Shown in pieces: positions 2,230 to 48,689 of a stretch of DNA of 64,000 nucleotides. A model generated the notes under the pieces. The model was not told the DNA's origin. It searched no databases and worked only from the letters and a program-made list of their open reading frames with translations. This stretch comes from Parapedobacter lycopersici. GTDB taxonomy: Bacteria; Bacteroidota; Bacteroidia; Sphingobacteriales; Sphingobacteriaceae. Numbering within the stretch: the stretch's first letter is position 1; each line of letters begins with the position of its first letter. The stretch spans positions 310,001 to 374,000 of the forward strand of contig NZ_JAMSLW010000004.1 in the NCBI RefSeq assembly GCF_024643285.1. The letters run 5' to 3'. The translations under genes and the position numbers were made by a program.

Positions 2230-2265
2230 GTTTAGGCACGTTATTTCCTTGTATCTGATCGGGGG

Positions 2266-10579: not shown

Positions 10580-10593
10580 TGAGTTGGCGTGGG

Positions 10594-10623
10594 CAAAGAT
10601 AGCGGATCTCCCAAAATCTACAA
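10594..10623 (-). promoter_or_regulatory. Candidate Bacteroidota-type promoter inside the capsule cluster
   Basis: Read on the minus strand, TTG (10623-10621) is followed after exactly 19 bases by TATCTTTG (10601-10594), a perfect match to the TAnnTTTG -7 element. It overlaps the last codons of the EpsG-like gene and would give a leader of roughly 10 bases before the GT4 start at 10579. It suggests that the distal GT, Wzi, Wza and Wzz genes can be expressed separately from the upstream genes. Confidence 0.5.
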
Positions 10624-11697
10624 TATCCGGTACGGTTGCAGGATATCGGGATGAATCATCATGATGCCATAATATAGTGCAAGTAGGCAAAAGACCAGGC
10701 GGATAACAGTTGTTGTCAGCTGTTCTTCCAGCTTAATCCGCGACTCCACTGCCTTAAATAGGTACGGCAGTGCAAACAGTACCATACCAAACAACAGTGA
10801 GGAGAGCCGCTGCATGATCGAAAAGGAGATGAAGAGCAAATTAATAAATGATCCCAGGGAAAGCGCCATAAACAAGCCTTCAACCAGGCGTTTGGGATAA
10901 TAGGCTAACAACGGCTTCCAACACAGTAAAAACCCAAGCATTACCAATTGGGCAATGGCCGAAATAGCATATCCACCCCGCCCAAACTCATTGTCCAGCA
11001 CATAACGTGTTAACGTGTCAGGCAAGCCAATTAAATTAAAAATCAACACGATCGGATCAAAAAAACCACCGACTAATCCCACAATAGGAAGCAAAAAATA
11101 AACGAACCGATTGCGGAATACTGCAAATGCCAGCATAAAGGGCAATACGATCAGTACAGCACTATGAATAAAGGCAAATACAATGACCAATAAGAACGAA
11201 CGCCAGTAATGTTTTTCCAAAAACAGGAATATCGCCCACATCCCGATACCGGCCGCTAACGCATAGCGAATCTGTGTGAAGTCCCGATAAAAAAAAAAGA
11301 ACCCTACATAGATCAATAAGGAGGTAAACGGGAAAGGGCTTTTTTTGAAAATGAGTGTATAGTTGACAAGACCGGTCATAACCGCCATCGCCATAAAGAC
11401 CACATGGATACCCATGTCTGCCGAGCTAACCAACTTATTCAATAGCATATATCCGCGTTCAATAGAAGAGGTGTAATCACCCAGCCATAATTCCTCCCAC
11501 GACAATCCCCCAGCCTGCTGAAACGCATCCCAGTAATTCAGGCTGTCATTATCTACACCTACAGCCCGAAGTCCCGCGAATAGCGTCAGCGCCAAGCATT
11601 GCAGAACGAAGAAAACCAGCTGGATATGACGATCCTTCACGAAGTCGAACACGACCATGGCTGCAGAAAAGAAAACGAGGATATAATAATAGACCAT
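10618..11697 (-). CDS. EpsG-like / Wzy-type polysaccharide polymerase, multi-pass membrane protein
   Basis: Predicted inner-membrane polymerase that joins lipid-linked repeat units. The 359 residues are dominated by hydrophobic segments (about ten). The early loop GLRAVGVDNDSLNYW and the later YRDFTQIRYALAAGI resemble EpsG-family polymerases, whose hallmark is a short RxG..DxxxY-type loop followed by an R(Q)..A stretch. The polymerase role is supported by its position among glycosyltransferases, a flippase and Wzz. Wzy proteins vary greatly, so the assignment rests on these short motifs, topology and context. Confidence 0.8.
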   Translation of the reverse strand: MVYYYILVFFSAAMVVFDFVKDRHIQLVFFVLQCLALTLFAGLRAVGVDNDSLNYWDAFQQAGGLSWEELWLGDYTSSIERGYMLLNKLVSSADMGIHVVFMAMAVMTGLVNYTLIFKKSPFPFTSLLIYVGFFFFYRDFTQIRYALAAGIGMWAIFLFLEKHYWRSFLLVIVFAFIHSAVLIVLPFMLAFAVFRNRFVYFLLPIVGLVGGFFDPIVLIFNLIGLPDTLTRYVLDNEFGRGGYAISAIAQLVMLGFLLCWKPLLAYYPKRLVEGLFMALSLGSFINLLFISFSIMQRLSSLLFGMVLFALPYLFKAVESRIKLEEQLTTTVIRLVFCLLALYYGIMMIHPDILQPYRIL

Positions 11698-11703
11698 CTC
11701 GAA

Positions 11704-12621
11704 TTATCGTTCAGCTATCGTTTTTCTCAACAGTGTCTTCACCAACAGTATCGCCTGATTACCTCCCAGACTAAACCGGTTACGCCGGATGATCCGGAGT
11801 CGCTCGGGCAAACCTGCGCTCATTACAAATTTAAAATATTCTTTGAATACCCGCCGTTGGCTATCATCCAGTTGATCTTTATAATGTTGATAAAAAGCAT
11901 ATACAGCGTCGAAATGACGGCGATCTACCACACATTCATCGGTAAAAAACCACCTTTTTGCTTGCTTCCAACGATTTACATGGTGTGCAGTCACATTGTC
12001 TCCATGTTGCCGGTACAGCATCAATACCTTATCAATATACCGAAGCTGACCGAAACATAATGCACCCAAGGTAATCAGGTGATCGTGCATCGCCACAGTC
12101 GCCGGGGGCTTTCCGAGTATATTAATCAATTCTCGGTTCAGCATCATTGAGCAACCTTGGATACCGGCATTAAGAAACAAGAAATCGTCGAGCGCAGTCG
12201 GATGCAACCGCGTTACCTGCCGCCTGATAACCCGTTCGTTATTCAGGTAATAAGCATTCGCATAAACCAATGCAGGGCCATCCGTTGTTGTTAACGCGGA
12301 CAACATGGTCTCAATCTTTTCTGGCAACCAGCTGTCATCCTGATCGCACAGCATGACAATGTCAGCGTCTGTATGTGCCAAAAGGTGTAAAAAGTTACGT
12401 GCTGCTCCAACACCGTTTACATTATCCGATAACATTCGGATCCGATCGTCCTGTTTACAGAAACCGGCCACGATATCAGTTGTTGTATCAGTAGAGCCGT
12501 CATCGTGGATCAACAACCGCCAACGGGAAAATGTCTGGGCCTGTAAGGACCGGATCTGTTCCTCAATATAGGCTGCACCATTATAGGTGGCCATGAGTAT
12601 TTCCACTGCCGGTTGTGTCAT
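11704..12621 (-). CDS. Glycosyltransferase family 2 protein (rhamnosyltransferase-like)
   Basis: GT-A fold sugar transferase, 305 residues, cytosolic face of the membrane. N-terminal MATYNGAAYIEEQI and DDGSTD at about 41-46 are the nucleotide-sugar site, and LCDQDD at about 96-101 supplies the metal-binding acidic residues. This set, with the AMHDHLI segment further on, is common in proteins annotated as rhamnosyltransferases, but the donor is not proven. It stops 6 bases before the polymerase start and begins next to the stop of the upstream GT gene, in tight operon spacing. Confidence 0.9.
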   Translation of the reverse strand: MTQPAVEILMATYNGAAYIEEQIRSLQAQTFSRWRLLIHDDGSTDTTTDIVAGFCKQDDRIRMLSDNVNGVGAARNFLHLLAHTDADIVMLCDQDDSWLPEKIETMLSALTTTDGPALVYANAYYLNNERVIRRQVTRLHPTALDDFLFLNAGIQGCSMMLNRELINILGKPPATVAMHDHLITLGALCFGQLRYIDKVLMLYRQHGDNVTAHHVNRWKQAKRWFFTDECVVDRRHFDAVYAFYQHYKDQLDDSQRRVFKEYFKFVMSAGLPERLRIIRRNRFSLGGNQAILLVKTLLRKTIAER

Positions 12622-34946: not shown

Positions 34947-35960
34947 CTAAAATACGCTCTTCCCTCTTACTAACAAATCTTGCCGGTTTTGGTTGCAGAC
35001 CGCGTAAGAAAAACCGGACTGCAGGGCATAGGCACCGTATTCGCCCCGTTTATTCAGGGCCAGAAAACCAACCTGTATGGCCTTTGCTGTTTCCGGCTTT
35101 TTACGGATAATCCGGTTTACGGCTTCGCGGCATGCATCTTCCGGCGAATAGCCCTGCCGCATGAGTTCCACTACCAGAAAGCTGCCCACAGTACGGATAA
35201 CCTCTTCCCCCACACCGGTGGCTGTAGCCGCGCCGATTTCATCATCCACATATAACCCGGCGCCGATAATCGGGCTGTCGCCCACCCGGCCGTGCATTTT
35301 AAAGGCCAGACCGCTGGTCGTACAGGCACCCGAAAGCCGGCCAGCTGCATCGCGCGCCAGCATCCCGATTGTATCGTGATTATACTGGTTTCCCGGTAAT
35401 TTCTCTGTAGTAAACGACCGGTTCTCGATGTTGATAACGGGTTGATATTTTTTTTGCTGTAGCCATTTCTTCCACGCCGCCGCTGCTTCCGGCGTCAGCA
35501 GGTCTTCTTTTTCAAATCCGCGTTCCAGCGCAAATTGCAACGCACCCCCGCCCACGAGCATCACATGCGGGGTTTCCTCCATCACCTTGCGGGCTACCGA
35601 AACCGGATGCGCAATATGTTCCAGGGCCGCCACAGCACCACAATTACCGCGATCATCCATGATACATGCATCCAGGGTGACATGTCCATCCCGGTCGGGG
35701 TACCCTCCTTTGCCCACGGTATGATTGTTCAGGTCGCTTTCGGCAATTCGCACCCCTGCCTCCACGGCATCCAGTGCATGTCCTCCCTTTTCAAGTACCG
35801 CCCAAGCCGCCCGGTTGGCCGCTACGCCAAAATCCCATGTGGAGATGACGATGGGCCCGTCAACTGAATTGCGCCTGCCGCCACTTCCTAACAGCTCGTT
35901 AACAGACAGCATGGCGCTAGCCGCCGTGCCGGCTTTAATAAATGTCCTGCGATCAATCAT
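34947..35960 (-). CDS. N4-(beta-N-acetylglucosaminyl)-L-asparaginase, Tat-exported
   Basis: Ntn-hydrolase that cleaves GlcNAc-asparagine linkages of glycopeptides. The 337 residues begin with a twin-arginine signal (DRRTFIKAG). The self-cleavage site and nucleophile Thr197 lie in NHDTIGM, the same context as the Elizabethkingia glycosylasparaginase. The alpha part contains STWDFGVAANRAAW and GNCGAVAALE, and the beta part contains GRVGDSPIIGAGLYVDD. Precursor cleavage between Asp196 and Thr197 is expected. Export by Tat suggests it folds in the cytoplasm and works in the periplasm. A related isoaspartyl peptidase role is less likely given the motif. Confidence 0.93.
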   Translation of the reverse strand: MIDRRTFIKAGTAASAMLSVNELLGSGGRRNSVDGPIVISTWDFGVAANRAAWAVLEKGGHALDAVEAGVRIAESDLNNHTVGKGGYPDRDGHVTLDACIMDDRGNCGAVAALEHIAHPVSVARKVMEETPHVMLVGGGALQFALERGFEKEDLLTPEAAAAWKKWLQQKKYQPVINIENRSFTTEKLPGNQYNHDTIGMLARDAAGRLSGACTTSGLAFKMHGRVGDSPIIGAGLYVDDEIGAATATGVGEEVIRTVGSFLVVELMRQGYSPEDACREAVNRIIRKKPETAKAIQVGFLALNKRGEYGAYALQSGFSYAVCNQNRQDLLVRGKSVF

Positions 35961-36088: not shown

Positions 36089-37348
36089 ATGAAAATTCGG
36101 CTAAGCATCTTCCTTTTCGTGTTTTCTGCGTTTTTACCTTGCACAGGCTATAGCCAGGCAAACCTGCATGATTCTGCACAATATAAAAAAATCATGCAAA
36201 TTGCGGAACAGGTCCGGAAGCAATACACACCCGATCAGCGTACTGCATTATTCGAAATCCAACTGGATACCACCCTGCGCATCCCACAGTACCACGTAAC
36301 CACCACGGATGAAAATGCGAAAGCCACTTTTACGGACTTATTGAAAAAAAGCGACATTCCTGCAACAGGTGCGGTCACGCTTCTCCCCGACAGCTCAGTT
36401 GCGGGAACCACCAGGGGCGTTATCAACCTTTCCGTTGCCAATCTTCGTACCGCTCCGCGCAACCAGGCCGAGCTGGCCACACAGGCACTATTGGGAACCG
36501 TGGTAGATCTGCTTCAGGAAAGGGATGGTTATTTCCGCGTACGGACCCCCGATGGTTATATCGCCTGGACCAGTACCTCATCGGTTGCGCCGAAAACGGA
36601 CGCAGCGCTTGCTTCATGGAATATACACGAAAAAGTCATCTTCATATCGGACTTTGGGCACTCCTACGAAGCAACGGATGAGTCGTCGATGCGGGTTTCC
36701 GATCTGGTAATGGGTGATCTGCTGCAGACCACAGGTACCTCCGGCGATTACGTACAGGTGATTTATCCCGATGGACGTAACGCCTTTGTAAAAAGCAGCC
36801 AGGTACAGGCATTCAGCAGCTGGCAGCAGGCGCTGAACCCTACAGCACAACATATATTGGATATTGCCAAAACCATGATGGGCGTACCCTATCTCTGGGG
36901 GGGTACTTCGGTAAAAGGCGTGGATTGCAGCGGCTTTACCAAGACAGCCTATTACATGAACGGCCTGGTTGTTCCGCGCGACGCTTCACAGCAGGTGCTG
37001 GCAGGGCTCGCATTGGACGTACTTACGAATGATGACCTGGACACAGCAAAGCTGCTGCGCAACCTGCAGCCCGCCGATTTACTGTTTTTTGCCGCAGCAA
37101 AAGGGAAAACACCCCATCCGCGCGTTACCCATGTGGCGTTGTACATGGGCAATGGCCTATTCATCCACGCGTCGGGGACGGTCCGCATTAACAGCTTGCT
37201 GAGCAGCGCGCCGAATTACGATGCCGACCGGGCGAATACCCTCGTTGCCGCCCGCCGCTACCTTGGCCAGCAGGACCCTGCGCTGCAGTTCCTTACGGCA
37301 CATCCGGCATATAATACCCAAGCAGCCAACCTGCCAAAAACCAACTAA
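36089..37348 (+). CDS. Exported NlpC/P60 peptidase with two SH3b domains (YkfC-like)
   Basis: Probable gamma-D-glutamyl-diamino acid endopeptidase acting on cell-wall peptides in the periplasm or outside. The 419 residues have a signal peptide ending near GYSQ, a first SH3b domain at about 110-165 (VANLRTAPRNQAELA), a second at about 180-240, and an NlpC/P60 domain at about 255-395. Catalytic residues are Cys280 (GVDCSGFT), His348 (VTHVALYMG) and His360 (FIHASG). Architecture and order match YkfC-type enzymes. The epimerase gene starts 3 bases after its stop, and SusC/SusD follow, so these form one transcription unit. Confidence 0.92.
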   Translation: MKIRLSIFLFVFSAFLPCTGYSQANLHDSAQYKKIMQIAEQVRKQYTPDQRTALFEIQLDTTLRIPQYHVTTTDENAKATFTDLLKKSDIPATGAVTLLPDSSVAGTTRGVINLSVANLRTAPRNQAELATQALLGTVVDLLQERDGYFRVRTPDGYIAWTSTSSVAPKTDAALASWNIHEKVIFISDFGHSYEATDESSMRVSDLVMGDLLQTTGTSGDYVQVIYPDGRNAFVKSSQVQAFSSWQQALNPTAQHILDIAKTMMGVPYLWGGTSVKGVDCSGFTKTAYYMNGLVVPRDASQQVLAGLALDVLTNDDLDTAKLLRNLQPADLLFFAAAKGKTPHPRVTHVALYMGNGLFIHASGTVRINSLLSSAPNYDADRANTLVAARRYLGQQDPALQFLTAHPAYNTQAANLPKTN

Positions 37349-37351
37349 TCA

Positions 37352-38437
37352 ATGAATACCACCAGCCATACAGCCACTCCCTTATTTACAACTCCCGACA
37401 CGGTAACCCGTAAGATGGGCAAATTCACCCTTCGATACCGCCCTTACACACTTACACTTAAGCATGTATTTACCATTGCAGCCGGATCGCGCAGCACAAC
37501 GCCCGTTGTACTCGTGGAATTGGAATATGATGGGGTTGCGGGATATGGTGAAGCATCCATGCCTCCTTACCTCGGGGAAAGCCATGAATCGGTGCTTGCC
37601 TTTTTGAACCGGGTAGACCTCACCGCTTTTTCCGACCCATTTCTTACGGAAGACATCCTAACGTATATCGACAGCCTCGCAATGAAGAATACGGCAGCGA
37701 AGGCATCGATTGACATTGCATTGCATGACTTGCTCGGAAAATTAATGGGGCAGTCCCTGCACCGGATATGGGGGTATAACCCGAAAACCACACCAGACAC
37801 CACCCTTACCATCGGCATTGATACACCTGAAATCGTACGGCAAAAGGTCCGGGAAGCCGACTCTTTTAAGATCCTGAAGGTAAAACTAGGCCTGGACACG
37901 GACAAACTGATGATTGAAACAATCCGCGAAGTAACGGATAAGCCGCTCTGTGTAGATGCGAACCAAGGCTGGAAAAAAAGAGAGGAAGCGCTGGAAATGG
38001 CACATTGGCTGGCTGAGCGGGGCGTTATTTTCCTGGAACAGCCGATGCCTAAGGAACAGGTGGATGATAACGCATGGCTTACGGCACACAGCCCAATCCC
38101 AACCGTAGGCGATGAAGCTGTCCAGCGGTTAAGCGATATCCGCAGCGCCCATGGCGTATATAGCGGCATCAACATCAAACTAATGAAATGCACGGGGTTA
38201 CGGGAAGCACATAAGATGGCCGAACTGGCCCGGGCGCTGGACATGAAAGTGATGCTGGGCTGCATGACGGAAACATCATGTGCGATATCCGCCGCAGCGC
38301 AATTGTCCCCTGTGGTCGACTGGGCTGACCTGGACGGCGCATTGCTGATCAGCAACGACGTGTATCAGGGCATGACAGTTGAACGGGGGAAAGTGGTTTT
38401 ACCCGACAGGCCGGGCATCGGTATAGCATTTTGCTAA
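37352..38437 (+). CDS. Dipeptide epimerase (L-Ala-D/L-Glu epimerase type), enolase superfamily
   Basis: Cytosolic enzyme that interconverts L-Ala-D-Glu and L-Ala-L-Glu so that murein peptides can be degraded. The 361 residues have the two catalytic lysines in LKVKLG (Lys176, Lys178) and Lys276 (INIKLM). Metal ligands are Asp202 (VDANQGW), Glu229 (FLEQPMP) and Asp254 (VGDEAV). The DxD pair Asp326/Asp328 (WADLDGALL) is the residue pair that binds the dipeptide amino group in characterised Ala-Glu epimerases. No signal peptide is seen. Other dipeptide specificities are known in this subgroup, so the exact substrate is inferred from the NlpC/P60 neighbour. Confidence 0.92.
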   Translation: MNTTSHTATPLFTTPDTVTRKMGKFTLRYRPYTLTLKHVFTIAAGSRSTTPVVLVELEYDGVAGYGEASMPPYLGESHESVLAFLNRVDLTAFSDPFLTEDILTYIDSLAMKNTAAKASIDIALHDLLGKLMGQSLHRIWGYNPKTTPDTTLTIGIDTPEIVRQKVREADSFKILKVKLGLDTDKLMIETIREVTDKPLCVDANQGWKKREEALEMAHWLAERGVIFLEQPMPKEQVDDNAWLTAHSPIPTVGDEAVQRLSDIRSAHGVYSGINIKLMKCTGLREAHKMAELARALDMKVMLGCMTETSCAISAAAQLSPVVDWADLDGALLISNDVYQGMTVERGKVVLPDRPGIGIAFC

Positions 38438-38471
38438 CGACGAGATATAACTAACCAAAATTAAAACCATT

Positions 38472-41400
38472 ATGAACAAGCGATTATTTTTCTTCGCTTG
38501 GGCGCTGCTGTGTACATGGGTGTATGTGGCGGAAGCCCGGCAAATGGCTGTAACCGGAAGGGTTACAGACGCGATGGACGGATCGCCGTTATCGGGGGTT
38601 ACGGTTGTGATCAAAGGCTCCACCGTGGCTACGGCCACAGGCAACGACGGCCGTTACCGCATCGATATTCCGGATGGCAATGCCGTATTATCCTTTTCGG
38701 CAGTTGGCTACGCACCACAAGAAATACGCGTAGGCAATAATACGGTAGTGGACGCGCAGCTTACGGTTTCGAACCGTGCGCTTGACGAGGTCATGGTCGT
38801 CGCCTACGGGACAGCAACAAGGGATACTTATACCGGTTCCGCCGCAGTAATCCGGCAGGAAGACATCCAGGACGTCCCCACCGTTTCTTTTGAAGGTGCG
38901 CTCTCGGGCCGGGTACCGGGAATACAGGTCACCGCTTCTTCAGGGCAGGCCGGATCGGCTCCCAGTATACGGATCCGCGGGATCGGCTCCATGAATGCCT
39001 CCAACGAGCCGTTATACGTCATTGATGGCGTTCCCGTGGTATCGGGCAGTGGCGGACAATTCGGCGATTACCTTTATACGTCCAACAACATCCTGAATTC
39101 CCTGAACCCGTCCGACATCGAGTCGATTACCGTACTGAAAGATGCAGCCGCATCTTCCCTGTACGGTTCACGGGCAGCAAATGGGGTGGTCGTGATTACA
39201 ACCAAAAAGGGCCAGCTTGGAAAGCCGGTCATCAACATCCGTTCCTCCGTAGGCTTTACGCCAAGCTGGGCTACAGATAACTATGAGCCGGCAGGTGTAC
39301 AGCAACAGGTAAATATGCTATACCAGGTTTTCCACGACCTCGGCACGTCCAATGGTTCTACGGAGGCTGAAGCCAGCGAAACAGCACTCGATATGCTGAA
39401 CAGCCGGTTTAACCGGCATGGCTATTATTTTGAAACGGCCGGCCCCGGTGTACTGGAAAATGTAGCCATCAGGGGACTTGCCGATGGCCTCATAAACCGC
39501 GAGGGCACCTACTTTGACTGGGAAGATCGCCTGTTCCGGACCGGGATATACCAAACCAACGACCTATCGGTCAGCGGAGGTACAGAAAGCACCCGGTATT
39601 ATTCTTCCCTTTCCTATACGAAAGACCAGAACCGGATTGTAATTAATGATTATGACCGGATAGCAGGTCGGGTCAACCTATCACAGAAAATCGGCAAACA
39701 CGTCGAGTTTATATCAAACATCAGCATTTCAAACAATAAACAGCAGGGATTTAATGACACCCGTAACCTGGGAGGAAATTATTATTTGCAGACGCGTAAC
39801 CTGTTATGGCCGCTATACTGGCCAACCGATTACAAAACCGGCGAGCCCTGGGTAAACCGGTACGGCAGCTATGCCTATAACGCGGAGTATTATGAAAACG
39901 AGTGGGAAAATAGCGCGAACACATTGCGGATTGCCGCTAACGAAACACTGAACATCCAGCTGCTTCCCGAACTGAACGTAAAGTCGGTATTCTCTTATGA
40001 AAATAACGCCGTAAAGGAGCACCTTTACTACAGTGCAAACCATTACGACGGCGCAACTTCAAACGGCGAGGTAAATGAGATTAGCACAGCTTATATGAAG
40101 TTGGTATCCTCCACTACGGCCAATTACAATAAGCAGTTCGGCATGCATGGATTGGACCTGCTCGCAGGTTTTGAAGCAGAGAAGAACAATACGGATTTTC
40201 AGCGCGCCACCGGAACGGATCTCCCCTCCAGTGCATTGCATTCCGTGGCCACCGCAGGGGAGCTGGACGCCAGTGCTTACTCCTGGGGCTATAACATGCT
40301 TTCGGTATTGTCCCGCGTGGCGTACAACTACGGCAGTAAATACAACCTGTCAGCATCGTATCGCCGCGACGGTTCGTCCCGGCTGAGTCCGGAAAACCGC
40401 TGGGGTAATTTCTGGTCGGTCGGCGGCGCATGGACGATCAGTGAAGAATCCTTTATGGATCGTGCAACCTTTTTCAGTAACCTGCGCTTACGCGCTTCTT
40501 ATGGAACAAACGGCACGCAGCCCACGGATAATTTCGGCTGGCGGACGTTGACAGGCTATACCAGCCGCTACATGGGAAATGCCGGCGGGGCGATCAATAC
40601 AATCGGCAACGAAGCGCTGACCTGGGAAACCAGTTATTCCACAAACGTAGCGCTGGAAATCGGCCTGTTTGAAGACCGGCTTTACGGCGTAGTGGAATAC
40701 TTCAACCGTGATTCCAGGAACCTACTACAGGATGTGCCCATTTCAACGGTAACGGGATTCGGCTCCATTCTCCGGAATATCGGCGAGGTGAATAACCGTG
40801 GCCTGGAAATCGAATTGGGGTACGACATCCTCCGGGAGGGTGATTGGAAATGGAGCGCAAACGTCAATGGATCCTTTATCGATTCCAAGGTAACCAAACT
40901 ATATAAAAATGAAGGCGACCTTAAAGGGCAGGATATCATTTGGGACGACCCGACGGGTGGCGATGACAGGGCCGAGTTTATTTATCGTGAAGGGGAATCC
41001 ATGTTGAGTTTCTATGGATTTGAATGGGCTGGCGTGGACCCGGAAAATGGCCGGAACATGTGGTATGTCAATCATCCTGATGGCAGCGATGTCGGTGATT
41101 TTGTGCACAACGGCAGGGGAGCTACCTACAATTGGTCGGACGCGAATCGCGTGATTCTCGGGTCGGCAATCCCCACAGTTTACGGTGGCCTGAACACCAA
41201 CGTAAGTTACAAGGGATTTAGTCTTGGCCTTAACTTCAGTTACAAAATAGGCGGTTATCTTTATGACGGGGCCTTCAAGGATGTGGCAGACGACGGGTAT
41301 TACTGGGAACGGATCCGTGCGCAGTATTACGATGAGCACAGGTGGACGGTGGAACGTCCAGGCGGTTCGCTGCCCAAACTCGACGGCAATGACCTGACCG

Positions 41401-41660
41401 ATGCCATGCAATACAGCAGCCGCCAGATGCACAACGCCAGTTTCCTCCGCCTGAAGAACATTAACCTGACGTATACGATACCTACACAGGTGGTTAGCAA
41501 GATCGGCGTTTCCAGCGCCCGGGTATATTTCAATGGAACGAACCTGTTAACCTTCTCCCGGTATAAAATCGCCGATCCGGAGGTTAACCAGTATGGCACG
41601 CGCGGCTGGGAAACCCCTTATGGCAAAACCTATACATTCGGTGTTGAATTCAGTTTTTAA
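38472..41660 (+). CDS. SusC/RagA-family TonB-dependent outer-membrane transporter
   Basis: Outer-membrane active importer of 1062 residues. A signal peptide (about 1-22) is followed by a carboxypeptidase-regulatory-like domain at about 25-100 (GRVTDAMDGSPLSGVTVVIK), a TonB box-like segment (DEVMVVAYG), and a plug with RIRGIGSMNASNEPLYVIDGVP and SITVLKDAAASSLYGSRAANGVV. The rest is barrel, ending in FGVEFSF. Such proteins work with a SusD lipoprotein encoded next to them, as here. Neighbouring genes are peptide-processing rather than glycosidases, so the cargo is probably a muropeptide. No anti-sigma/ECF pair is adjacent. Confidence 0.95.
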   Translation: MNKRLFFFAWALLCTWVYVAEARQMAVTGRVTDAMDGSPLSGVTVVIKGSTVATATGNDGRYRIDIPDGNAVLSFSAVGYAPQEIRVGNNTVVDAQLTVSNRALDEVMVVAYGTATRDTYTGSAAVIRQEDIQDVPTVSFEGALSGRVPGIQVTASSGQAGSAPSIRIRGIGSMNASNEPLYVIDGVPVVSGSGGQFGDYLYTSNNILNSLNPSDIESITVLKDAAASSLYGSRAANGVVVITTKKGQLGKPVINIRSSVGFTPSWATDNYEPAGVQQQVNMLYQVFHDLGTSNGSTEAEASETALDMLNSRFNRHGYYFETAGPGVLENVAIRGLADGLINREGTYFDWEDRLFRTGIYQTNDLSVSGGTESTRYYSSLSYTKDQNRIVINDYDRIAGRVNLSQKIGKHVEFISNISISNNKQQGFNDTRNLGGNYYLQTRNLLWPLYWPTDYKTGEPWVNRYGSYAYNAEYYENEWENSANTLRIAANETLNIQLLPELNVKSVFSYENNAVKEHLYYSANHYDGATSNGEVNEISTAYMKLVSSTTANYNKQFGMHGLDLLAGFEAEKNNTDFQRATGTDLPSSALHSVATAGELDASAYSWGYNMLSVLSRVAYNYGSKYNLSASYRRDGSSRLSPENRWGNFWSVGGAWTISEESFMDRATFFSNLRLRASYGTNGTQPTDNFGWRTLTGYTSRYMGNAGGAINTIGNEALTWETSYSTNVALEIGLFEDRLYGVVEYFNRDSRNLLQDVPISTVTGFGSILRNIGEVNNRGLEIELGYDILREGDWKWSANVNGSFIDSKVTKLYKNEGDLKGQDIIWDDPTGGDDRAEFIYREGESMLSFYGFEWAGVDPENGRNMWYVNHPDGSDVGDFVHNGRGATYNWSDANRVILGSAIPTVYGGLNTNVSYKGFSLGLNFSYKIGGYLYDGAFKDVADDGYYWERIRAQYYDEHRWTVERPGGSLPKLDGNDLTDAMQYSSRQMHNASFLRLKNINLTYTIPTQVVSKIGVSSARVYFNGTNLLTFSRYKIADPEVNQYGTRGWETPYGKTYTFGVEFSF

Positions 41661-41679
41661 CGATTAAAAGATTTGTACA

Positions 41680-43143
41680 ATGAAAACGATAATTATACTG
41701 TGGGTAGGGGCATCAATGGCAGCATGCCTTTCATGTTCCGACTTCCTGGATGTGAAACCGACCAACTCGGGCGATTCCCAAAGCTCCATACAAACGGCCG
41801 CCGATGCCCAGGTAATAATCAATGGGCTGATGCGGTCTATGACCAGCTCGGATTATTATGGCCGGAATTTTATCATGTATGGCGATGCAAAGGGTGGAGA
41901 CCTGACCATTGCGTCCCAGGGCCGCGGACTGGATCCGCTGTACACCTTCAATCATACGGTAACTGCCAATAGTTATTCCGGTTTCTGGACCCAGCTGTAT
42001 GAAAGCATTTTACAGGTAAATAACCTGCTGGAAAACATAGACAGGCTGGAGCAGGAAGGGACAACGGACGACTTCAGTACATACAAAGGGCTGGCGCTCA
42101 CCGCCCGGGCCCTGATTTACTTTGATTTGGTTCGCCTATATGGTAAGGCATATACCGATGACCCGGCGTCATACGGCGTTCCCAACATAACGGCCACACT
42201 GGAAGCCGCTGCCCAGCCACTCCGGGCAACGGTTGCGGAAAACTATACGCAGATACTGGCTGACTTGATTGCTGCGGCACCCTTGCTTCCTAAAACCCCA
42301 ACCAATGGCTATTTAAACTATTACGCCAATAAAGCGTTACAGGCGCGGGTAAATCTGTATATGGGCGATCACGCAGCGGCATTAAGTGCTGCGGAGGAAA
42401 TCATCAACGACAAGGTGTATACACTATATGAAAACGAGGCGTGGACAGGCTCATGGAAAACGCCATTCGGCACTGAATCCATATTTGAATTGGGTATCTT
42501 CCCGAACGAGGGCGATTTAGGCAGTGCATCGCTGGGCTTTTACCTGCGGCGCCTGGCACACGGCGCGCCCACGGCTGCCGGCTGGTTCATGGCCAGCGAT
42601 TACTTTCTTGAGCGCCTGGGGGAAGATCAGGACGATGTGCGCTGGGGGGTAATGGACCAGGATGAATCGGAAACCCCGCGTCTAGGTTCATGTTATAAAT
42701 ATAGTGGCAGTGTTGCACTGGAAGGCGACGGGAAGTCAACCAACACCGCAGTGAATATCAAGGTCATCCGGCTCTCTGAAGTATATCTCATCGCGGCTGA
42801 GGCCGCCCTGCCCACCGATCCGGGGCTTGCGGCCAGCTACCTCAACGCCATCCGGAAACGGTCGCCAAACCTGTCACCGGCTACCGCGGCAACGATCACC
42901 CTGGACATGATTCTCGATGAGCGGAGCAAGGAACTGTTTGCCGAAGGCCACCGGTTTTTTGACATGATCCGGTTAAACCGGTCGATCACATTCAACGATG
43001 ACTTTGGTGGAATAACGGTTCCTCACAGGGAAAAAACGATTGACAGAAGTTTTTACAAGACGGTTTTACCTATTTCACAGGACGAAATCAACGCCAACCC
43101 GGGGATTGAAGCGCAGCAGAATCCGGGATATTCGGGCCAGTAA
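41680..43143 (+). CDS. SusD/RagB-family nutrient-binding lipoprotein
   Basis: Surface lipoprotein partner of the SusC-like transporter, 487 residues. The signal peptide has cysteines at 16 and 19, either of which can be lipidated (LSC-SDFLDV). A RagB/SusD core with TPR-like helices (LTARALIYFDLVRLYGKAY) is followed by the typical ending (DEINANPGIEAQQNPGYSGQ). It starts 19 bases after susC and ends at a strong stem-loop. Ligand-binding residues cannot be assigned by eye. It is the last gene of the unit. Confidence 0.94.
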   Translation: MKTIIILWVGASMAACLSCSDFLDVKPTNSGDSQSSIQTAADAQVIINGLMRSMTSSDYYGRNFIMYGDAKGGDLTIASQGRGLDPLYTFNHTVTANSYSGFWTQLYESILQVNNLLENIDRLEQEGTTDDFSTYKGLALTARALIYFDLVRLYGKAYTDDPASYGVPNITATLEAAAQPLRATVAENYTQILADLIAAAPLLPKTPTNGYLNYYANKALQARVNLYMGDHAAALSAAEEIINDKVYTLYENEAWTGSWKTPFGTESIFELGIFPNEGDLGSASLGFYLRRLAHGAPTAAGWFMASDYFLERLGEDQDDVRWGVMDQDESETPRLGSCYKYSGSVALEGDGKSTNTAVNIKVIRLSEVYLIAAEAALPTDPGLAASYLNAIRKRSPNLSPATAATITLDMILDERSKELFAEGHRFFDMIRLNRSITFNDDFGGITVPHREKTIDRSFYKTVLPISQDEINANPGIEAQQNPGYSGQ

Positions 43144-43145
43144 GC

Positions 43146-43210
43146 ATACAGGAATCGCGCCATACAGTCGTTGAATAGCAGCAATCAATTGCTTGGCGCG
43201 ATTCCTGTAT
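43146..43210 (+). terminator. Strong intrinsic terminator after the susD-like gene
   Basis: Arms 43146-43162 and 43194-43210 form a perfect 17-bp stem across a 31-base loop, which itself contains the small hairpin GCAAT-CA-ATTGC. A T-rich stretch (TTTCTTTT) follows on the plus strand. On the minus strand no T-run follows, so termination towards the oxidoreductase side is unlikely. Confidence 0.8.
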
Positions 43211-43258
43211 TTTCTTTTCCGAACGCCTCATGTAACGACTGCTACGGAATCCGGGTCG

Positions 43259-44650
43259 TTATTCGGGCGCCTGCGTTTCCGCCACTTCAAGTGCCTTGGT
43301 AGTCACGTAGTACTTGGCCAGCATGTTGGGCACTTCCCAATCAGGCAGGGTACCTGACTTCAGAAAGGACAGGTATTTTTCGGTGACCTGTGCAAAATGC
43401 GCCTCATGGGAGGTCACCAGCGCGGAGTCAATTCCAATGCGATACAGGCCATCAGGCAAACGTTCGAACGTCAGTCCCGGATAGGTAGCACCGAGTCGGT
43501 TCATCGCGTCACCGAGTGCCGACTCGAAAGAAGCTACATCCCGTTCTTCGGTAGGCTGGACGTAGAGCACTGGCTTATACGATTCTGCTTTCCCCTGCTT
43601 GATGATCAGGTTGGCATACCGGCCGCGCATAATGGAATAATGGGTATCACCGGCACCTTCCGGGGCCTCAAAATTCCAGACAACTGATACCCGGGCATGG
43701 ATACCCCGGATCCTGTAATTAATTTCACCATTGGCAAAAACAGCCAGGTTGCCATTGCTGTCCAAGGCATCATGCAGGTATTCCGGGAAATCGGAGATTT
43801 GTGTTGACCGGGTAAACTGTGCCGGCGTAACAATAGCCGGCCACCGTTTGGCATTAATTACCTCGATATCCCGATCATAATGGATTACTTCCTCCGGAAA
43901 ACTCTCCCATTGCACCAGGTCGACCAAATGCGTGGTAATATCCACGAGCCCCTCCCCTTGTTGCCGGGTATCGTAAAACCACGCCGGCCGGATCAGCGGT
44001 TTGCCCGACACTTCCTTGAAAAAATGATGTACACTTTCCTTGGTTATCGCAGGGTGCCCGGCATCTCCGGCGACAAGCCCCCCAAAGAATTCAGGCAACT
44101 GCGAAAGCTCTTTTTGCAGTATGGTATTAATTTCATACCGTTCTGTCATGATGTCGTATAACACCACGTGGTTTTCCCGGGCTTGTGCAAATGCAGCCTC
44201 CAGCCGGGGGAAATCGGCATGGCGGATAATCATCGGCTTATCTGCCAGCACATTTAAGCCCGCTGCCACAGCCTGGCCGATGTAATCCATCTTGTGCTGG
44301 TTATTCCCTGACAGAACGACTACGTTCCCCTTTCGTTCGCTCAGCATCTTCTCCATGAAATCTGGTCCGGAATACACGACTTCTTTCCAGTGTGTAGGGT
44401 GGTCGGGCCGGGAGTTGTATTGTGTTATCAGTGCCAGGTGAGCCTCCAGTTCAGGTCCATCCGGAGCGTACACATACGCGGTGTCACTCACACCGGGGTA
44501 CGCCGACTTTTGCACCAGCGATGCGTGGAAATGCCCCGGAGCAACCGTCACCAGTTTAATCGTTCCCTGTGTTTGACCTGCATGCTGGTTGTTGCCGCAG
44601 GCGGCGAGACCCATAATCAGGATCAGGCATATTGGCGTATTTGTTTTCAT
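43259..44650 (-). CDS. Exported Gfo/Idh/MocA-type oxidoreductase lipoprotein
   Basis: Protein of 463 residues resembling Gfo/Idh/MocA dehydrogenases with a distinct C-terminal domain (Bacteroidota type). I start at 44650 (MKTNTPICL), which yields a clean signal and lipobox (LAACGNN); the longer frame adds 13 unrelated residues. VTVAPGHFHASLVQ and GNVVVLSGNNQHKMDYIGQAVAAGLNVLADKPM suggest the NAD-binding half, where Lys is the conserved EKP lysine (here DKP). The glycine-rich GxGxxG loop is not obvious (VTVAPGHFHAS). An exported NAD(P)-dependent enzyme is odd, and the substrate is unknown. It is the last gene of the minus-strand unit facing susD. Confidence 0.8.
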   Translation of the reverse strand: MKTNTPICLILIMGLAACGNNQHAGQTQGTIKLVTVAPGHFHASLVQKSAYPGVSDTAYVYAPDGPELEAHLALITQYNSRPDHPTHWKEVVYSGPDFMEKMLSERKGNVVVLSGNNQHKMDYIGQAVAAGLNVLADKPMIIRHADFPRLEAAFAQARENHVVLYDIMTERYEINTILQKELSQLPEFFGGLVAGDAGHPAITKESVHHFFKEVSGKPLIRPAWFYDTRQQGEGLVDITTHLVDLVQWESFPEEVIHYDRDIEVINAKRWPAIVTPAQFTRSTQISDFPEYLHDALDSNGNLAVFANGEINYRIRGIHARVSVVWNFEAPEGAGDTHYSIMRGRYANLIIKQGKAESYKPVLYVQPTEERDVASFESALGDAMNRLGATYPGLTFERLPDGLYRIGIDSALVTSHEAHFAQVTEKYLSFLKSGTLPDWEVPNMLAKYYVTTKALEVAETQAPE

Positions 44651-44720
44651 AAAAAAGGTATCAGTGGTTAATTTCAATAACGAAATCAATCACGTCCGGT
44701 AAACAGTGACCAGCGGCAGG

Positions 44721-46208
44721 TTACCAGACGTAATTCTTAAATTGTTCCCCCGGCGTAGCGGACAGGTCGATTAAATAACCGTTGATTACCGCGTAGGCAG
44801 GGACATTGTCCCTGGCGAGGAAGAAATTGGCTGCCGTTCCCAGGTTCGGGCCTGATGGAACAGGTGTCCGCGTGTTGAAAACGATCAGCGGTAGGCTGTG
44901 ATGGCGGTCTTCCGGCAAATTCGTCACCCGGACCGCATAATACCCCTGCCGCAGCAGGTTCATCGCCTGCTCCGTTGACACTTGTTCAATGCTGTTAAAT
45001 GCCGTTGGATAAACCCTACCCGGCATAAAGTGGTAGCCTTCGGCATCCAGTTCAGTATAGCCGAATTGTTCTTTCAGGTCGCCCACATCCGTTATCCGGG
45101 ATTGCACATGGTACGTGCGGTAGTCGCCGGGATCCGTTACCTCATTCCGTACGACGGACAGGTCCACCCGGTAATTCAGGGAATCGTGGGCGGCACCCAC
45201 ATTCCGGATCAGCAGATCGGAAAGTTGCGAGGCACTGAAAGGTAGGGCCTCATATTCGGCTCTGTCGTATTGCATATAACTTTCCTGGGCAATCTCCATC
45301 AACGCATTCAGGATAACAATAAAATTAAGCTTCCGGATAACTTGCTTTTCGGGATCACCCGGATAACCGCCTGATTCGATCAGGACGGTACTTGCACCCC
45401 AGGTCTGGAAATTATCACCAAAAGCACGGGGCGAATAGGTATCGTCATATTTGGCCACGCCGTTCGGAATATAGCCCTGCAGGATCCGGTTAATGCTGGC
45501 CGCAATTTTCATGGCATTACCGCGTACCTCATTTACCTCCCGTTCCTCATTATACGCGGGCGCCAGCAGGGCAACAGTTACCGGATTGGATGTTCCCGGC
45601 ACGTTATAGTAAATATTCATGTCGTGCAGGTTGAAGGCGAAATCCGGTTTGACGGTCTCGGCAGCTTCTATCAGGATCTTCCCTTCTACCGTCTCACCGG
45701 CCCTGGCGTCACGGTTAATATCCACGTCCATTGCATTTCGCCGGGTATACACGTCCGCACCATCTGGGTTGAGCATGGGAATGAAATAAATGCTGGTCTG
45801 TTCACGCAACAGCGTACGGATACTATCCAGACCATCATTTTCTGCCTCCAAAAAATTAAACAAGTCCATCAGCGCCATGGTTGCCGTAGGTTCATTGCCG
45901 TGCATCTGCGACCAAAGCATGATCTTTTTCGGACCACTTCCGTATGTTAGCTGGTAAATTGGCTTTTTCAGTACGGAAACCCCCAGCTGGGTCACTTCAA
46001 ATGCGTCCCCGCCCTTTCGTTTCAGAATTAACGGTTCGATATCGGCGTGCTTAAACCGGCGATTGGTGATGGTGGGTTCGCGATACGTTTCAAAGGCATT
46101 GGCCAGCATTGCCGTATCAGGCACATAAACGTCTTTTCCGGAGAACCAGTTGCCCTGACAAGCGGAGGACAACAATACCATAGCGAATAAATAAATGAAT
46201 GGTTTCAT
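44721..46208 (-). CDS. M14-family zinc carboxypeptidase, lipoprotein
   Basis: Exported metallopeptidase of 495 residues with a lipobox (LLSSACQGN). Zinc ligands are visible at His103 and Glu106 (SQMHGNEPTAT) and His195 (FNLHDM), the catalytic Glu is at 278 (TVLIESGGYPGDPEK), and the arginine/asparagine loop is NPDGADVYTRRNAMDVDINRD. The M14 family includes true carboxypeptidases and murein tripeptide amidases such as MpaA, so a role on cell-wall peptides is possible but not proven. It lies between the LD-carboxypeptidase gene (101 bases upstream) and the oxidoreductase gene. Confidence 0.9.
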   Translation of the reverse strand: MKPFIYLFAMVLLSSACQGNWFSGKDVYVPDTAMLANAFETYREPTITNRRFKHADIEPLILKRKGGDAFEVTQLGVSVLKKPIYQLTYGSGPKKIMLWSQMHGNEPTATMALMDLFNFLEAENDGLDSIRTLLREQTSIYFIPMLNPDGADVYTRRNAMDVDINRDARAGETVEGKILIEAAETVKPDFAFNLHDMNIYYNVPGTSNPVTVALLAPAYNEEREVNEVRGNAMKIAASINRILQGYIPNGVAKYDDTYSPRAFGDNFQTWGASTVLIESGGYPGDPEKQVIRKLNFIVILNALMEIAQESYMQYDRAEYEALPFSASQLSDLLIRNVGAAHDSLNYRVDLSVVRNEVTDPGDYRTYHVQSRITDVGDLKEQFGYTELDAEGYHFMPGRVYPTAFNSIEQVSTEQAMNLLRQGYYAVRVTNLPEDRHHSLPLIVFNTRTPVPSGPNLGTAANFFLARDNVPAYAVINGYLIDLSATPGEQFKNYVW

Positions 46209-46309
46209 ATCTTAGGTATTTAACGATCAGCGTTCACACGGCCAATTGGTACAACTGACGATTCATCCGTTTAGCCTGCTCGGAATTCCTGCAAGCTGCT
46301 TTCCTGTAT

Positions 46310-47338
46310 TCAACGAAGAATATTTTCCAGTACCTGCAATGTTCCCTGGCCGGCATCCATGCGAACCCGCGCCCCGATTGGCAGGATAAACTGCTCATCA
46401 ATATGCCCAATCCGTGCTCCCTGATATGCCGGTATTCCCAACGGCTTAACGTAATCGTTTAGTACCTGATCCAGGGTAAGGGAATTTCTTGGGTTTTTCG
46501 CTTGGCAGTCCGAACACTTACCAAAAATCAGCCCTTTAATCTTGGATAACGCGCCCGTTAGCGCCAGCTGGCTGAACATCCGGTCGATCCGGTACGGTTC
46601 TTCACCGATATCCTCCAGAAAGAGCAGGCTATTCTCGAAATCAGGGAAATACCGGGAACCGGCAATACCGGCCAGTACCGTAAGATTTCCCCCCAGGAGC
46701 CGGCCCTCAGCCGAGCCGGAAGAAATCGGACGGAATTCCTTTTTGTCTGTAGCATACACCGGCGGCTTCCCTTCAAAAAACAGCTGCGTAAACTGGTTGT
46801 TGACCATGGATGTCCAAACGCTATTAGCCACCGCCCCATGGAACGTAATCAGTCCCGTCTGCGTATAAATAGCCTGATGAAAAGCTGTAATATCGCTGTA
46901 GCCCATAAAAATTTTAGGATTCCGTGCGATCAAGCCATAATCCAGCCGGCTGAGCAGTCGGGCCGCACCCGACCCGCCGCGGAGGCAAACGATGGCTTTG
47001 ACTTCCGGGTCGCTGAACATGCGGTGTATGTCGGCTATCCGTTCTTCATCCGTACCGGCCAGATACCCGTATTTTTTACCTACATGCTGCCCCCATTTGA
47101 CGCGAAGTCCGAGTGCAGCAAAATTAGCTTCGGCAATCGCATAGCCTTTGTCGTCGACCAATGGCGATGACGGAGTAATGATCCCGACGGTATCCCCCTT
47201 TTTTATTCGCCTGGGATAAATGGCAGCCCGTTGTCCGGCGAGTGAATCACTTACCGCTCCAAAAGCCGGCAATGTATTTCCCAGGGCCATTGAGGCAATT
47301 CCTGTGCTACCTATTTTCAAGAATGTACGTTTGTCCAT
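46310..47338 (-). CDS. LD-carboxypeptidase, S66 family, with export signal (LdcA/YkfA-like)
   Basis: Serine peptidase that removes the terminal D-Ala from murein tetrapeptides. I take the ATG at 47338 (MDKRTFLKIG), 342 residues, since the longer frame would overlap dihydroorotase and its extra residues look random. The triad is Ser148 (GYSDITAFH), Glu242 (FLEDIGEEPYRID) and His312 (RIGHIDEQ), and RGGSGAARLL is the adjacent conserved loop. The N-terminus looks like a signal (Lys-Arg before a hydrophobic stretch ending near PAFGA), unlike the cytosolic enzyme of Escherichia coli, so it probably acts in the periplasm. It follows dihydroorotase by 13 bases. Confidence 0.92.
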   Translation of the reverse strand: MDKRTFLKIGSTGIASMALGNTLPAFGAVSDSLAGQRAAIYPRRIKKGDTVGIITPSSPLVDDKGYAIAEANFAALGLRVKWGQHVGKKYGYLAGTDEERIADIHRMFSDPEVKAIVCLRGGSGAARLLSRLDYGLIARNPKIFMGYSDITAFHQAIYTQTGLITFHGAVANSVWTSMVNNQFTQLFFEGKPPVYATDKKEFRPISSGSAEGRLLGGNLTVLAGIAGSRYFPDFENSLLFLEDIGEEPYRIDRMFSQLALTGALSKIKGLIFGKCSDCQAKNPRNSLTLDQVLNDYVKPLGIPAYQGARIGHIDEQFILPIGARVRMDAGQGTLQVLENILR

Positions 47339-47351
47339 TACAGTCAGTATA

Positions 47352-48689
47352 TCATGATCGGTTAAATACCAGCCGTTTTCCGGAGCTTCCCTCAAGAAGC
47401 TCGCCGTCACGGTAAACCAGGTTCCCCGATACCAGCGTGTGGGTGATGGTTGATTTAAAGGTATGTCCCTCAAATGGCGACCATCCGCATTTAGCAAGCA
47501 TGTTGGCTTTCGTGACCGTATATGGTTTGTTTAAATCCACCAAAACCAAGTCAGCCCAATACCCCTCTCTTACAAACCCGCGGTTATTGACCTGAAAACA
47601 GATCGCCGTATTGTGTGCGGTTTTCTGCACCAGCTCTTCCAGTGTCAGCTCTCCATTGTGATGAAGGTCGAGCAATGCCTGCAGCGCATGTTGCACGAGC
47701 GGTCCGCCGGATGGCGCCTGTAGATAAGGCTGCGACTTTTCGTCAAGCGTATGTGGCGCATGATCCGTGGCGATAACATCAATATGGCCATCCCGTACCG
47801 CTGCAAGGATTCCACGGCGGTCTTCTGCGGTTTTCACGGCCGGATTCCATTTAATGAAGTTGCCCTTCCCGGCGTAGTCCGCATCGCTGAACCAAAGGTG
47901 ATGTATACAGGCTTCTGCTGTAATGCGTTTCGCTTCCAATGGGATGGAAGCATCAAACAATAGGGCTTCCCGTGCCGTTGAAATATGCAGGATATGCAGG
48001 CGGGAGCCGTGTTTCTTAGCCAGTTCAACCGCACGCGACGACGAGATAAAACACGCTTCCGATGAGCGGATTAATGGATGCATATCCGGTGTCAGTGCAT
48101 CGCCGTAAATTGCCTTGAATTTTGCGAGGTTCTGCCGAATTGTCGCTTCATCTTCGCAGTGGGTGGCAATCAGCATAGGTGCCTGCGCAAATATCCGCTC
48201 CAGGGTATATTCGTCATCCACCAGCATATTACCGGTAGATGATCCCATGAACACCTTAATCCCGCATACCGTGCGTGGATCGGTGCGGAGCACTTCGTCC
48301 AGGTTATCGTTAGCGGCGCCCATGTAAAACGAGTAGTTCGCGAGCGAGCGCTGGGCTGCAATATCAAATTTCTCCTGCAACAGGGCCTGTGTAAGCGTAT
48401 TGGGAACAGTGTTGGGCATTTCCATGAACGAGGTAGTCCCCCCCGCTACTGCCGCCCGACTCTCGTGCCAGATATCAGCCTTGTGCGTAAGACCGGGTTC
48501 ACGGAAATGCACCTGGTCATCGATCAGACCGGGTAACAGGTATTGTCCCTCCGCATCGATCTCGATTTCCGCCCGCTCGGTAAGCTGCGGTGCAATCTTT
48601 TGGATGATCCCGTCCCGGATGTATAGGTCGGCAACGAAAATCTGTCCTTCATTGACAATGGTGGCGACTTTAATAAGTATAGCAGGCAT
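47352..48689 (-). CDS. pyrC: Dihydroorotase with Gln at the first metal-ligand position
   Basis: Pyrimidine biosynthesis enzyme closing carbamoyl aspartate to dihydroorotate, 445 residues, cytosolic. The amidohydrolase signature is LLPGLIDDQVHFREPG, where the usual His-x-His is Gln59-Val-His61. The other key sites are present: Lys145 (GIKVFMGSS), His177 (ATHCED), His235 (LHILHIS) and catalytic Asp309 (IATDHAPHT). MPNT and FNRS-type ends are normal. The same variant motif may be general in Bacteroidota. It is the first gene of a unit that continues into LD-carboxypeptidase. Confidence 0.92.
   Translation of the reverse strand: MPAILIKVATIVNEGQIFVADLYIRDGIIQKIAPQLTERAEIEIDAEGQYLLPGLIDDQVHFREPGLTHKADIWHESRAAVAGGTTSFMEMPNTVPNTLTQALLQEKFDIAAQRSLANYSFYMGAANDNLDEVLRTDPRTVCGIKVFMGSSTGNMLVDDEYTLERIFAQAPMLIATHCEDEATIRQNLAKFKAIYGDALTPDMHPLIRSSEACFISSSRAVELAKKHGSRLHILHISTAREALLFDASIPLEAKRITAEACIHHLWFSDADYAGKGNFIKWNPAVKTAEDRRGILAAVRDGHIDVIATDHAPHTLDEKSQPYLQAPSGGPLVQHALQALLDLHHNGELTLEELVQKTAHNTAICFQVNNRGFVREGYWADLVLVDLNKPYTVTKANMLAKCGWSPFEGHTFKSTITHTLVSGNLVYRDGELLEGSSGKRLVFNRS

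Follow-up and report, generated by a model that had tools for sequence, protein, structure and literature searches.

A dipeptide epimerase gene paired with a gene for an NlpC/P60 peptidase is already a published arrangement. The passages of one report that deal with the pair record ykfB-ykfC in Bacteroides thetaiotaomicron and Gramella, give B. subtilis YkfC and Bacillus YkfB as lacking a signal peptide, with the epimerase step placed in the cytosol, and for Bacillus cereus describe an exported YkfC, a YkfB without signal peptide and oppA downstream (PMC2954226). A larger murein locus is reported for a Urechidicola symbiont from genome and transcriptome, with two SusCD pairs, an L-Ala-D/L-Glu epimerase, murQ, ampG, an amidase, GH3 and GH171, and the section on this locus states that most of its genes were assigned to murein metabolism by the authors (PMC10199937). 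The locus analyzed here occupies positions 36,089 to 47,338 of a 64,000-nucleotide stretch of Parapedobacter lycopersici DNA (the window), on contig C17 of a 3.62-Mb genome (G000); by epimerase, and among the matches listed, Parapedobacter species are the nearest named relatives. It joins an nlpC-epimerase pair to a SusCD transporter and faces genes for an S66 carboxypeptidase and an M14 metallopeptidase.

This locus is a peptide-only variant of already described murein/SusCD loci, and we hold with fair confidence that it serves murein-peptide scavenging. An initial annotation had proposed TonB-dependent murein-peptide uptake and breakdown and was unsure whether a SusCD-based version had been described; its interpretation as a whole is partly supported, and a murein locus with SusCD and an epimerase had in fact been published, as far as the account of that locus goes (PMC10199937).

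Organization of the locus

The genes of the putative system are as follows.

36089-37348, plus strand: NlpC/P60 gene (Pfam)
37352-38437, plus strand: dipeptide epimerase gene (nearest solved structure 3iji)
38472-41660, plus strand: susC of group I (TIGR04056 and TIGR04057 above cut-off)
41680-43143, plus strand: susD, predicted surface lipoprotein (PF07980, PF14322)
43146-43210, no strand: terminator-like hairpin with 17-bp stem and U-run, between the converging gene sets
44721-46208, minus strand: M14 metallopeptidase, predicted lipoprotein (PF00246)
46310-47338 (from ATG), minus strand: S66 LD-carboxypeptidase with a KR-type leader resembling those of twin-arginine translocation (Tat) (PF02016, PF17676)

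Pfam, NCBIfam and motif reading confirmed all six genes that the initial annotation had named, at the positions given there; its gene list was right in these entries, but omitted a Gfo/Idh lipoprotein between SusD and M14. Gene calls throughout are the longest open reading frame. On the plus strand the order nlpC-epimerase-susC-susD has intergenic gaps of 3, 34 and 19 bp, an operon-like spacing. The hairpin (-35.8 kcal/mol, z -5.3) had no equally stable counterpart among 200 shuffles, and the plus- and minus-strand gene sets, converging on it, are therefore probably separate transcripts. A consensus scan for promoters and terminators found no excess over shuffled sequence (8 versus 8.0, and 9 versus 8.3).

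Co-conservation of SusCD with the nlpC-epimerase pair

Neighbourhoods were counted in 120 loci, namely 80 named ones, which are the nearest among the matches listed and not a random sample, and 40 stretches from further genomes. Clade A comprises loci whose epimerase is at least 60% identical to that of the window (n = 89) and clade B the more distant ones (n = 31), identity being measured on the best tblastn piece. L082 and L091, without an epimerase call, were excluded from gene-order counts; the 89 clade-A rows include L056 and L075, cut at contig ends, and L119, where 2042-3175 is a DgcA-like paralogue. Of the 87 clade-A loci with a call, 69 have a co-oriented nlpC gene upstream of the epimerase; among loci of at least 9 kb, nlpC is present in 66/74 of clade A versus 0/30 of clade B. 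The gene immediately after the epimerase is a co-oriented TonB-dependent transporter in 15 of 85 clade-A loci, with 0 to 3 in each of the other 1-kb bins; in clade B this occurs in 0/31, one transporter being next on the opposite strand.

The wider survey covered 399 genomes of the family, with at most three SusD and five epimerase candidates scored per genome under E-value limits, so that absences in it are not firm: the epimerases of L175 and L176 were missed by it and found on reading the loci. The SusD type of the window was scored in 82 genomes, a clade-A epimerase in 123 and both in 65. The initial annotation had staked its proposal on SusCD, epimerase and NlpC/P60 being conserved together, and they are: 62 of the 65 genomes with both have the SusD start 3.2-3.6 kb downstream of the epimerase, in the same orientation. 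On reading, L175 and L176 proved to be linked as well.

Occupancy of the slot between the epimerase and the M14-S66-pyrC genes (pyrC coding for dihydroorotase) is a better test of coupling than this count. Among Sphingobacteriaceae with an otherwise similar locus, the slot holds the window's SusCD type in L043 and L176. In L036/L188, L202, L207 and L210 it is taken by a SusC from a different group, paired with a SusD-like_2 protein; identification was by Pfam in L036 and in the others by a profile built from L036. It is without SusCD in seven other Parapedobacter genomes, where gfo comes next, and in L044, which is also without S66. In SusC trees the label 'adjacent' changes at least 5 times (30 rows, IQ-TREE) or 6 times (69 rows including 21 from the window's own genome, FastTree), changes that may be gains or losses; in the larger tree four own-genome SusCs were entered twice, and FastTree joins long branches. 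As placed by these trees, the SusCs adjacent to the epimerase are of several lineages, not one. In loci of groups III and IV, SusC often lies a few genes distant. A second set (L182-L221) took 40 of the clade-A genomes in which group I SusD was not scored, with G110, G243, G298, G324 and G385 (of 58) left out; SusC lies directly behind the epimerase in 11/40 of these loci and nlpC before it in 29/40. Some genomes occur in both sets, and the counts are not additive.

Several observations weigh against the murein-scavenging reading. The linked genomes are concentrated in genus g16 (59/62), with two in the window's genus and one in g15, so they are not independent and shared descent explains much of the 62/65. 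Seven of nine genomes of the window's genus keep nlpC-epimerase without SusCD at this place. At 14 loci from genomes without a clade-A match, the stretch read contains the window's SusCD type but no nlpC-epimerase, and an M14 gene is close by in 6 of them; L177 and L178 come from genomes that hold both, with SusCD apart from nlpC-epimerase. In the second set, 11 of 40 loci have a gene other than nlpC before the epimerase. From the set of unlinked SusD loci G183 was left out, and L179 stops at a contig end. Group I SusCD near M14 without nlpC-epimerase was observed in L162, L165, L166, L167, L173 and L174; in L173 a gene for a Gate-domain membrane protein lies between the two.

The concentration of linkage in one genus would be expected if the locus were inherited synteny without shared function, in which iaaA, nlpC-epimerase, SusCD, M14-S66 and pyrC are separate units subject to slow rearrangement. 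The two converging gene sets, the plain housekeeping neighbours pyrC and msrA and the 61 SusC-like match segments in the window's own genome point the same way. On the other hand, the same slot is taken by other SusC groups, and all 15 transporters starting within 1 kb behind an epimerase run in its direction, which makes such an explanation improbable.

SusC and SusD

The transporter genes are adjacent and satisfy the criteria for a SusC/RagA and SusD/RagB pair, with TIGR04056 (788 bits, cut-off 368), TIGR04057 and the SusD Pfam families above cut-off. The best-scoring own-genome paralogue of SusC is 31% identical over almost the full length. Cys19 of SusD is invariant in a 14-row alignment, and the predicted SusD model (mean predicted local distance difference test score, pLDDT, 73) has a SusD fold nearest to BT_2365 and BVU_0732. 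Since neither of these has a stated ligand, the fold was rejected as evidence of a ligand, and the nearest solved SusDs (3mcx, 3myv and 3kez) are titled without one. Murein-peptide import by this SusCD is accordingly our inference, a further point on the debit side.

These properties would also suit a general oligopeptide importer of the RagAB kind that stands beside the peptidases by chance, with nlpC-epimerase devoted to turnover of the cell's own wall, for which no outer-membrane importer is needed. Among solved structures RagA ranks second for SusC, and RagB is among the solved matches of SusD, scoring far below three uncharacterized Bacteroides SusDs; the six unlinked SusCD loci near M14 and the seven genomes of the genus without SusCD here agree with it. 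Against a general importer stand the 62/65 linkage, the other SusC groups in the same slot and the joint occurrence of NamZ, transporter, nlpC and epimerase in 11 of the 120 loci, mostly of Bacteroidales types (NamZ, an exo-muramidase, and GHL10 and transglutaminase-like genes each had a single representative identified with Pfam). Larger loci containing the nlpC-epimerase pair are thus present in a number of Bacteroidota. We consider this explanation unlikely, though it deserves to be taken seriously.

The enzymes

The nearest solved structures of the NlpC/P60 enzyme are 'dipeptidyl-peptidase VI' 3npf and 3pvq, followed by B. cereus YkfC 3h41. Two SH3b domains had been claimed for it; the first scores above Pfam cut-offs, but the second falls short (SH3_YKFC_2nd, 22.6 versus 27.4 bits). 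In B. cereus YkfC the residues for free-L-Ala specificity, Tyr118 and Asp256, fall in GYxxW and PRD stretches (PMC2954226), and Tyr157 and Asp298 of the window's enzyme align to these stretches. Both are conserved in 61/63 aligned NlpC neighbours, and Cys280 and His348 in 63/63; His360, taken as the third catalytic residue, lies outside the columns conserved at 90% in this 63-row alignment. The free-L-Ala signature of YkfC is matched by Cys280, His348, Tyr157 and Asp298. The expected substrate is therefore a free-L-Ala murein peptide whose sugar has already been removed by an amidase, and the enzyme is a putative gamma-D-Glu-diamino acid endopeptidase of the YkfC/dipeptidyl-peptidase VI type. 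Its hydrophobic N-terminus suggests that it is probably exported, a test that discriminates poorly (positive in 54/63 nlpC and 307/744 other genes) and is given little weight.

The epimerase is nearest to 3iji (484 bits, aligned over almost the full length), which we take to be the dipeptide epimerase BT1313 of B. thetaiotaomicron. The catalytic lysines and DxD pair noted in the initial annotation were located as K176/K178, K276/K279 and D326-L-D328, together with D202, E229 and D254; K176, K178, D202, E229, D254 and K276 are invariant across 162 aligned epimerase sequences, and the lysines and three acidic metal ligands expected of an L-Ala-D/L-Glu epimerase of the enolase superfamily are all present. 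The start codon lies 3 nt past the nlpC stop, and a test for RRxFLK-type leaders found neither signal peptide nor Tat motif.

Every NCBIfam equivalog model scored under its cut-off for this enzyme (NF011708, 170/343 bits; NF041118, 120/500; DgcA NF042940, 222/400), and the top one was DgcA, an N-acetyl-D-Glu racemase, ahead of the L-Ala-D/L-Glu epimerase models, which speaks against a murein substrate. The epimerase might then have a different N-acyl-D-Glu or dipeptide as its substrate, and the locus serve non-murein D-glutamyl peptides. Genome G027 has a further epimerase-family gene and a DUF1611 gene beside the same kind of locus. That second enzyme, however, shares only 31% identity with the epimerase of the window, which matches 3iji over nearly its full length, and the partner NlpC is of the L-Ala-D-Glu-releasing type, so that a non-murein substrate is very improbable. 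In the G027 neighbourhood (L161, 6841-10358) the murein-type locus adjoins genes for a DUF1611 protein (presumably DgcN, the partner of DgcA), an amino acid permease and an epimerase paralogue resembling DgcA, and D-Glu use next to it is probable.

The S66 enzyme has Ser148, and its N and C domains (PF02016, PF17676) agree with an S66 LD-carboxypeptidase whose nearest solved structure is 6uuk; it is not an LdcA equivalog (NF008424, 172 versus 378 bits). The export claimed for it finds a Tat-like leader, but of KR rather than RR type, and a KRxF start occurs in 14 of the 17 S66 rows shown. The M14 enzyme has the lipobox-like start expected from its annotation as a lipoprotein; its zinc and catalytic residues H103, E106, H195 and E278 are invariant in a 14-row alignment, and its predicted model (mean pLDDT 80) matches generic carboxypeptidases. 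Identification as the murein tripeptide amidase MpaA was rejected (NF007897, 24 versus 157 bits; generic fold). The M14 leader is lipoprotein-like in Parapedobacter and missing in some Sphingobacterium and Pedobacter-type homologues (L043, L176 and L207 compared), so the location of this enzyme may also have moved.

Proposed route and the inner-membrane step

In the scavenging route that we infer, including each substrate, each cellular location and the part given to a POT symporter, SusCD would use TonB energy to carry cell-wall peptides, or muropeptides later cut by an amidase, across the outer membrane. Once these are in the periplasm, S66 would remove terminal D-Ala, M14 might help and NlpC/P60 would split free L-Ala-gamma-D-Glu-diaminopimelate into L-Ala-D-Glu and diaminopimelate. 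L-Ala-D-Glu would then cross the inner membrane, most likely by a POT symporter coded elsewhere, and be converted to L-Ala-L-Glu by the cytosolic epimerase.

The initial annotation had noted that an inner-membrane permease is missing; this holds for the window, but the genome has one POT peptide symporter above cut-off, on C19, as a candidate. A search of the genome for an SBP_bac_5 dipeptide-binding protein gave no match. AmpG was rejected as a candidate, its single match in the genome reaching 18 bits versus a cut-off of 350. SSF symporters beside some Sphingobacterium epimerases were also rejected as inner-membrane carriers, because in the one such locus read, L189, xylose-isomerase-like and FGGY kinase genes come after the SSF gene, a sugar cluster.

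The sugar part is elsewhere in the window's genome, in an island on C18 with NamZ, MurQ, NagA, an Amidase_2 protein and an SSF symporter; MurQ and NagA are above equivalog cut-offs and the Amidase_2 protein is under the AmpD cut-off. NamZ is presumably the family GH171. The same island (G000:C18:222500-242000, L157), a second one for wall recycling, also has an S9 peptidase, a double beta-lactamase-fold protein and a glucosamine-isomerase/PIG-L domain fusion. Elsewhere in the window's family, GH3 and beta-lactamase-fold enzymes occur in L160 (G027) and L212 (G060), and MurQ in L212; at 9417-12371 of the latter, a murein-type locus, a GH3 domain is fused to a beta-lactamase domain.

A Tat-type leader on the epimerases of relatives

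The cytosolic final step that had been proposed for the epimerase fits the window's genome, but many relatives' epimerases bear a Tat-type leader. The test was home-made, requiring a motif (strict or loose) and a hydrophobic stretch, over up to 90 residues of epimerase leader and the first 60 of background genes. Leaders were found on 56/89 (strict) or 63/89 (loose) clade-A epimerases, the window's among the 89, and on 0/31 of clade B; background genes of these loci gave 28/1162 and 114/1162, respectively. In the Parapedobacter/Albibacterium/Sphingobacterium lineage, which includes the window, the leader is missing in 20/20 rows, and outside it the proportions rise to 56/69 and 63/69; of the six leaderless rows there, two stop at contig ends and a third is the DgcA-like paralogue. 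A second, Sphingobacterium-rich set (L180-L221) has it in 13 of 42 epimerase rows. Clade-A epimerases with a leader include those of L058, L038, L072, L094 and L100. A lipobox-like sequence was flagged in 11 leader-bearing epimerases, two of them (L101, L109) with doubtful starts. TatC was found in 18/18 genomes checked. Where a transporter immediately follows the epimerase (15 loci), the leader is present in 7 (loose) and missing in 8.

A 70-row epimerase tree from which leaders were excluded groups the 27 rows belonging to the window's lineage in a single leaderless clade (support 97/92) nested inside leader-bearing rows; its neighbours L210 and L211 do have the leader, and L210 also shares the window's synteny. 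This tree left out leaderless L053, L056, L075, L096 and L106 and included the DgcA-like paralogue. A quick repeat with 61 rows, leaderless rows added and paralogue removed, kept the clade (support 87) and needs 5 leader changes because Sunxiuqinia-type L096 and L106 and others are leaderless. The simplest account of both trees is a single loss of the predicted leader in the window's lineage, with a few scattered others.

POT symporters prefer L,L-dipeptides. With a leader, the epimerase would work in the periplasm and an ordinary L,L-dipeptide would cross the inner membrane, and conversion of L-Ala-D-Glu there would make a transporter for D-residues unneeded. We put at about even the chance that Bacteroidota and Ignavibacteriota with nlpC-epimerase, outside one Sphingobacteriaceae lineage, run a murein-peptide pathway entirely outside the inner membrane, Tat-exported epimerase included, that SusCD was recruited to it repeatedly, and that loss of the leader in the window's lineage returned the last step to the cytosol. 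The exported dipeptide epimerase seems to be the new part: titles and abstract openings listed from the open-licence literature, and word searches for signal peptide or periplasm inside two papers, yielded no earlier report, which is no proof that none exists.

Neighbouring genes

Three further genes lie within or beside the locus.

43259-44689, minus strand: Gfo/Idh-type oxidoreductase, predicted lipoprotein (PF16490)
34947-35960, minus strand: asparaginase/isoaspartyl-peptidase-type enzyme with RR Tat-type leader (PF01112; leader read in the sequence)
47352-48689, minus strand: dihydroorotase (pyrC), a housekeeping synteny landmark (NF006688 above cut-off)

The Gfo/Idh-type lipoprotein was rejected as a member and is probably outside the system, its homologue in L113 sitting inside a Gfo/ThuA/DUF6807 insert; genes of Gfo-like size occur in L114-L116. 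The asparaginase-type gene, divergent from nlpC, is kept in 15/74 clade-A and 0/30 clade-B loci, and a role of its product on isoaspartyl bonds in wall peptides is possible.

Comparison with known systems

A murein-peptide route of this kind would give Bacteroidota a testable outer-membrane path for cell-wall peptides. Such peptides also signal to plant and animal hosts, hence their uptake by particular bacteria matters. An experimental test of a murein-type SusCD was not found in titles and abstract openings of the open-licence literature. RagAB of Porphyromonas gingivalis is likewise a SusCD-type peptide transporter; it differs in its neighbours and in the low rank of RagB in the SusD search.

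The window shares with ykfA-D and dppB-E of B. subtilis an S66 enzyme (YkfA), an epimerase (YkfB), an NlpC/P60 enzyme (YkfC) and a peptide transporter. It differs in having SusCD at the outer membrane instead of a dipeptide ABC transporter, in the export-type N-termini of NlpC and S66, in the position of S66 on the other strand and in a genome where no SBP_bac_5 protein was found. The division of labour proposed for B. cereus ykfB-ykfC is the same, with the cut outside, dipeptide import and the epimerase inside, as set out in the passages on the pair (PMC2954226), whereas the host is Gram-positive and oppA stands downstream instead of SusCD. An exported dipeptide epimerase would contrast with the cytosolic step of the Bacillus scheme as given in those passages (PMC2954226).

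The closest solved relatives of the window's two enzymes are the Bacteroides epimerase and NlpC/P60 pair, 3iji and 3pvq. The corresponding genes are, we assume, BT1313 and BT1314. In the one Bacteroides locus examined (L097), SusC/SusD was not found beside the pair. The Urechidicola symbiont locus, finally, unites SusCD and epimerase with the full sugar machinery, while the window has the peptide part only and its genome keeps the sugar part on the C18 island.

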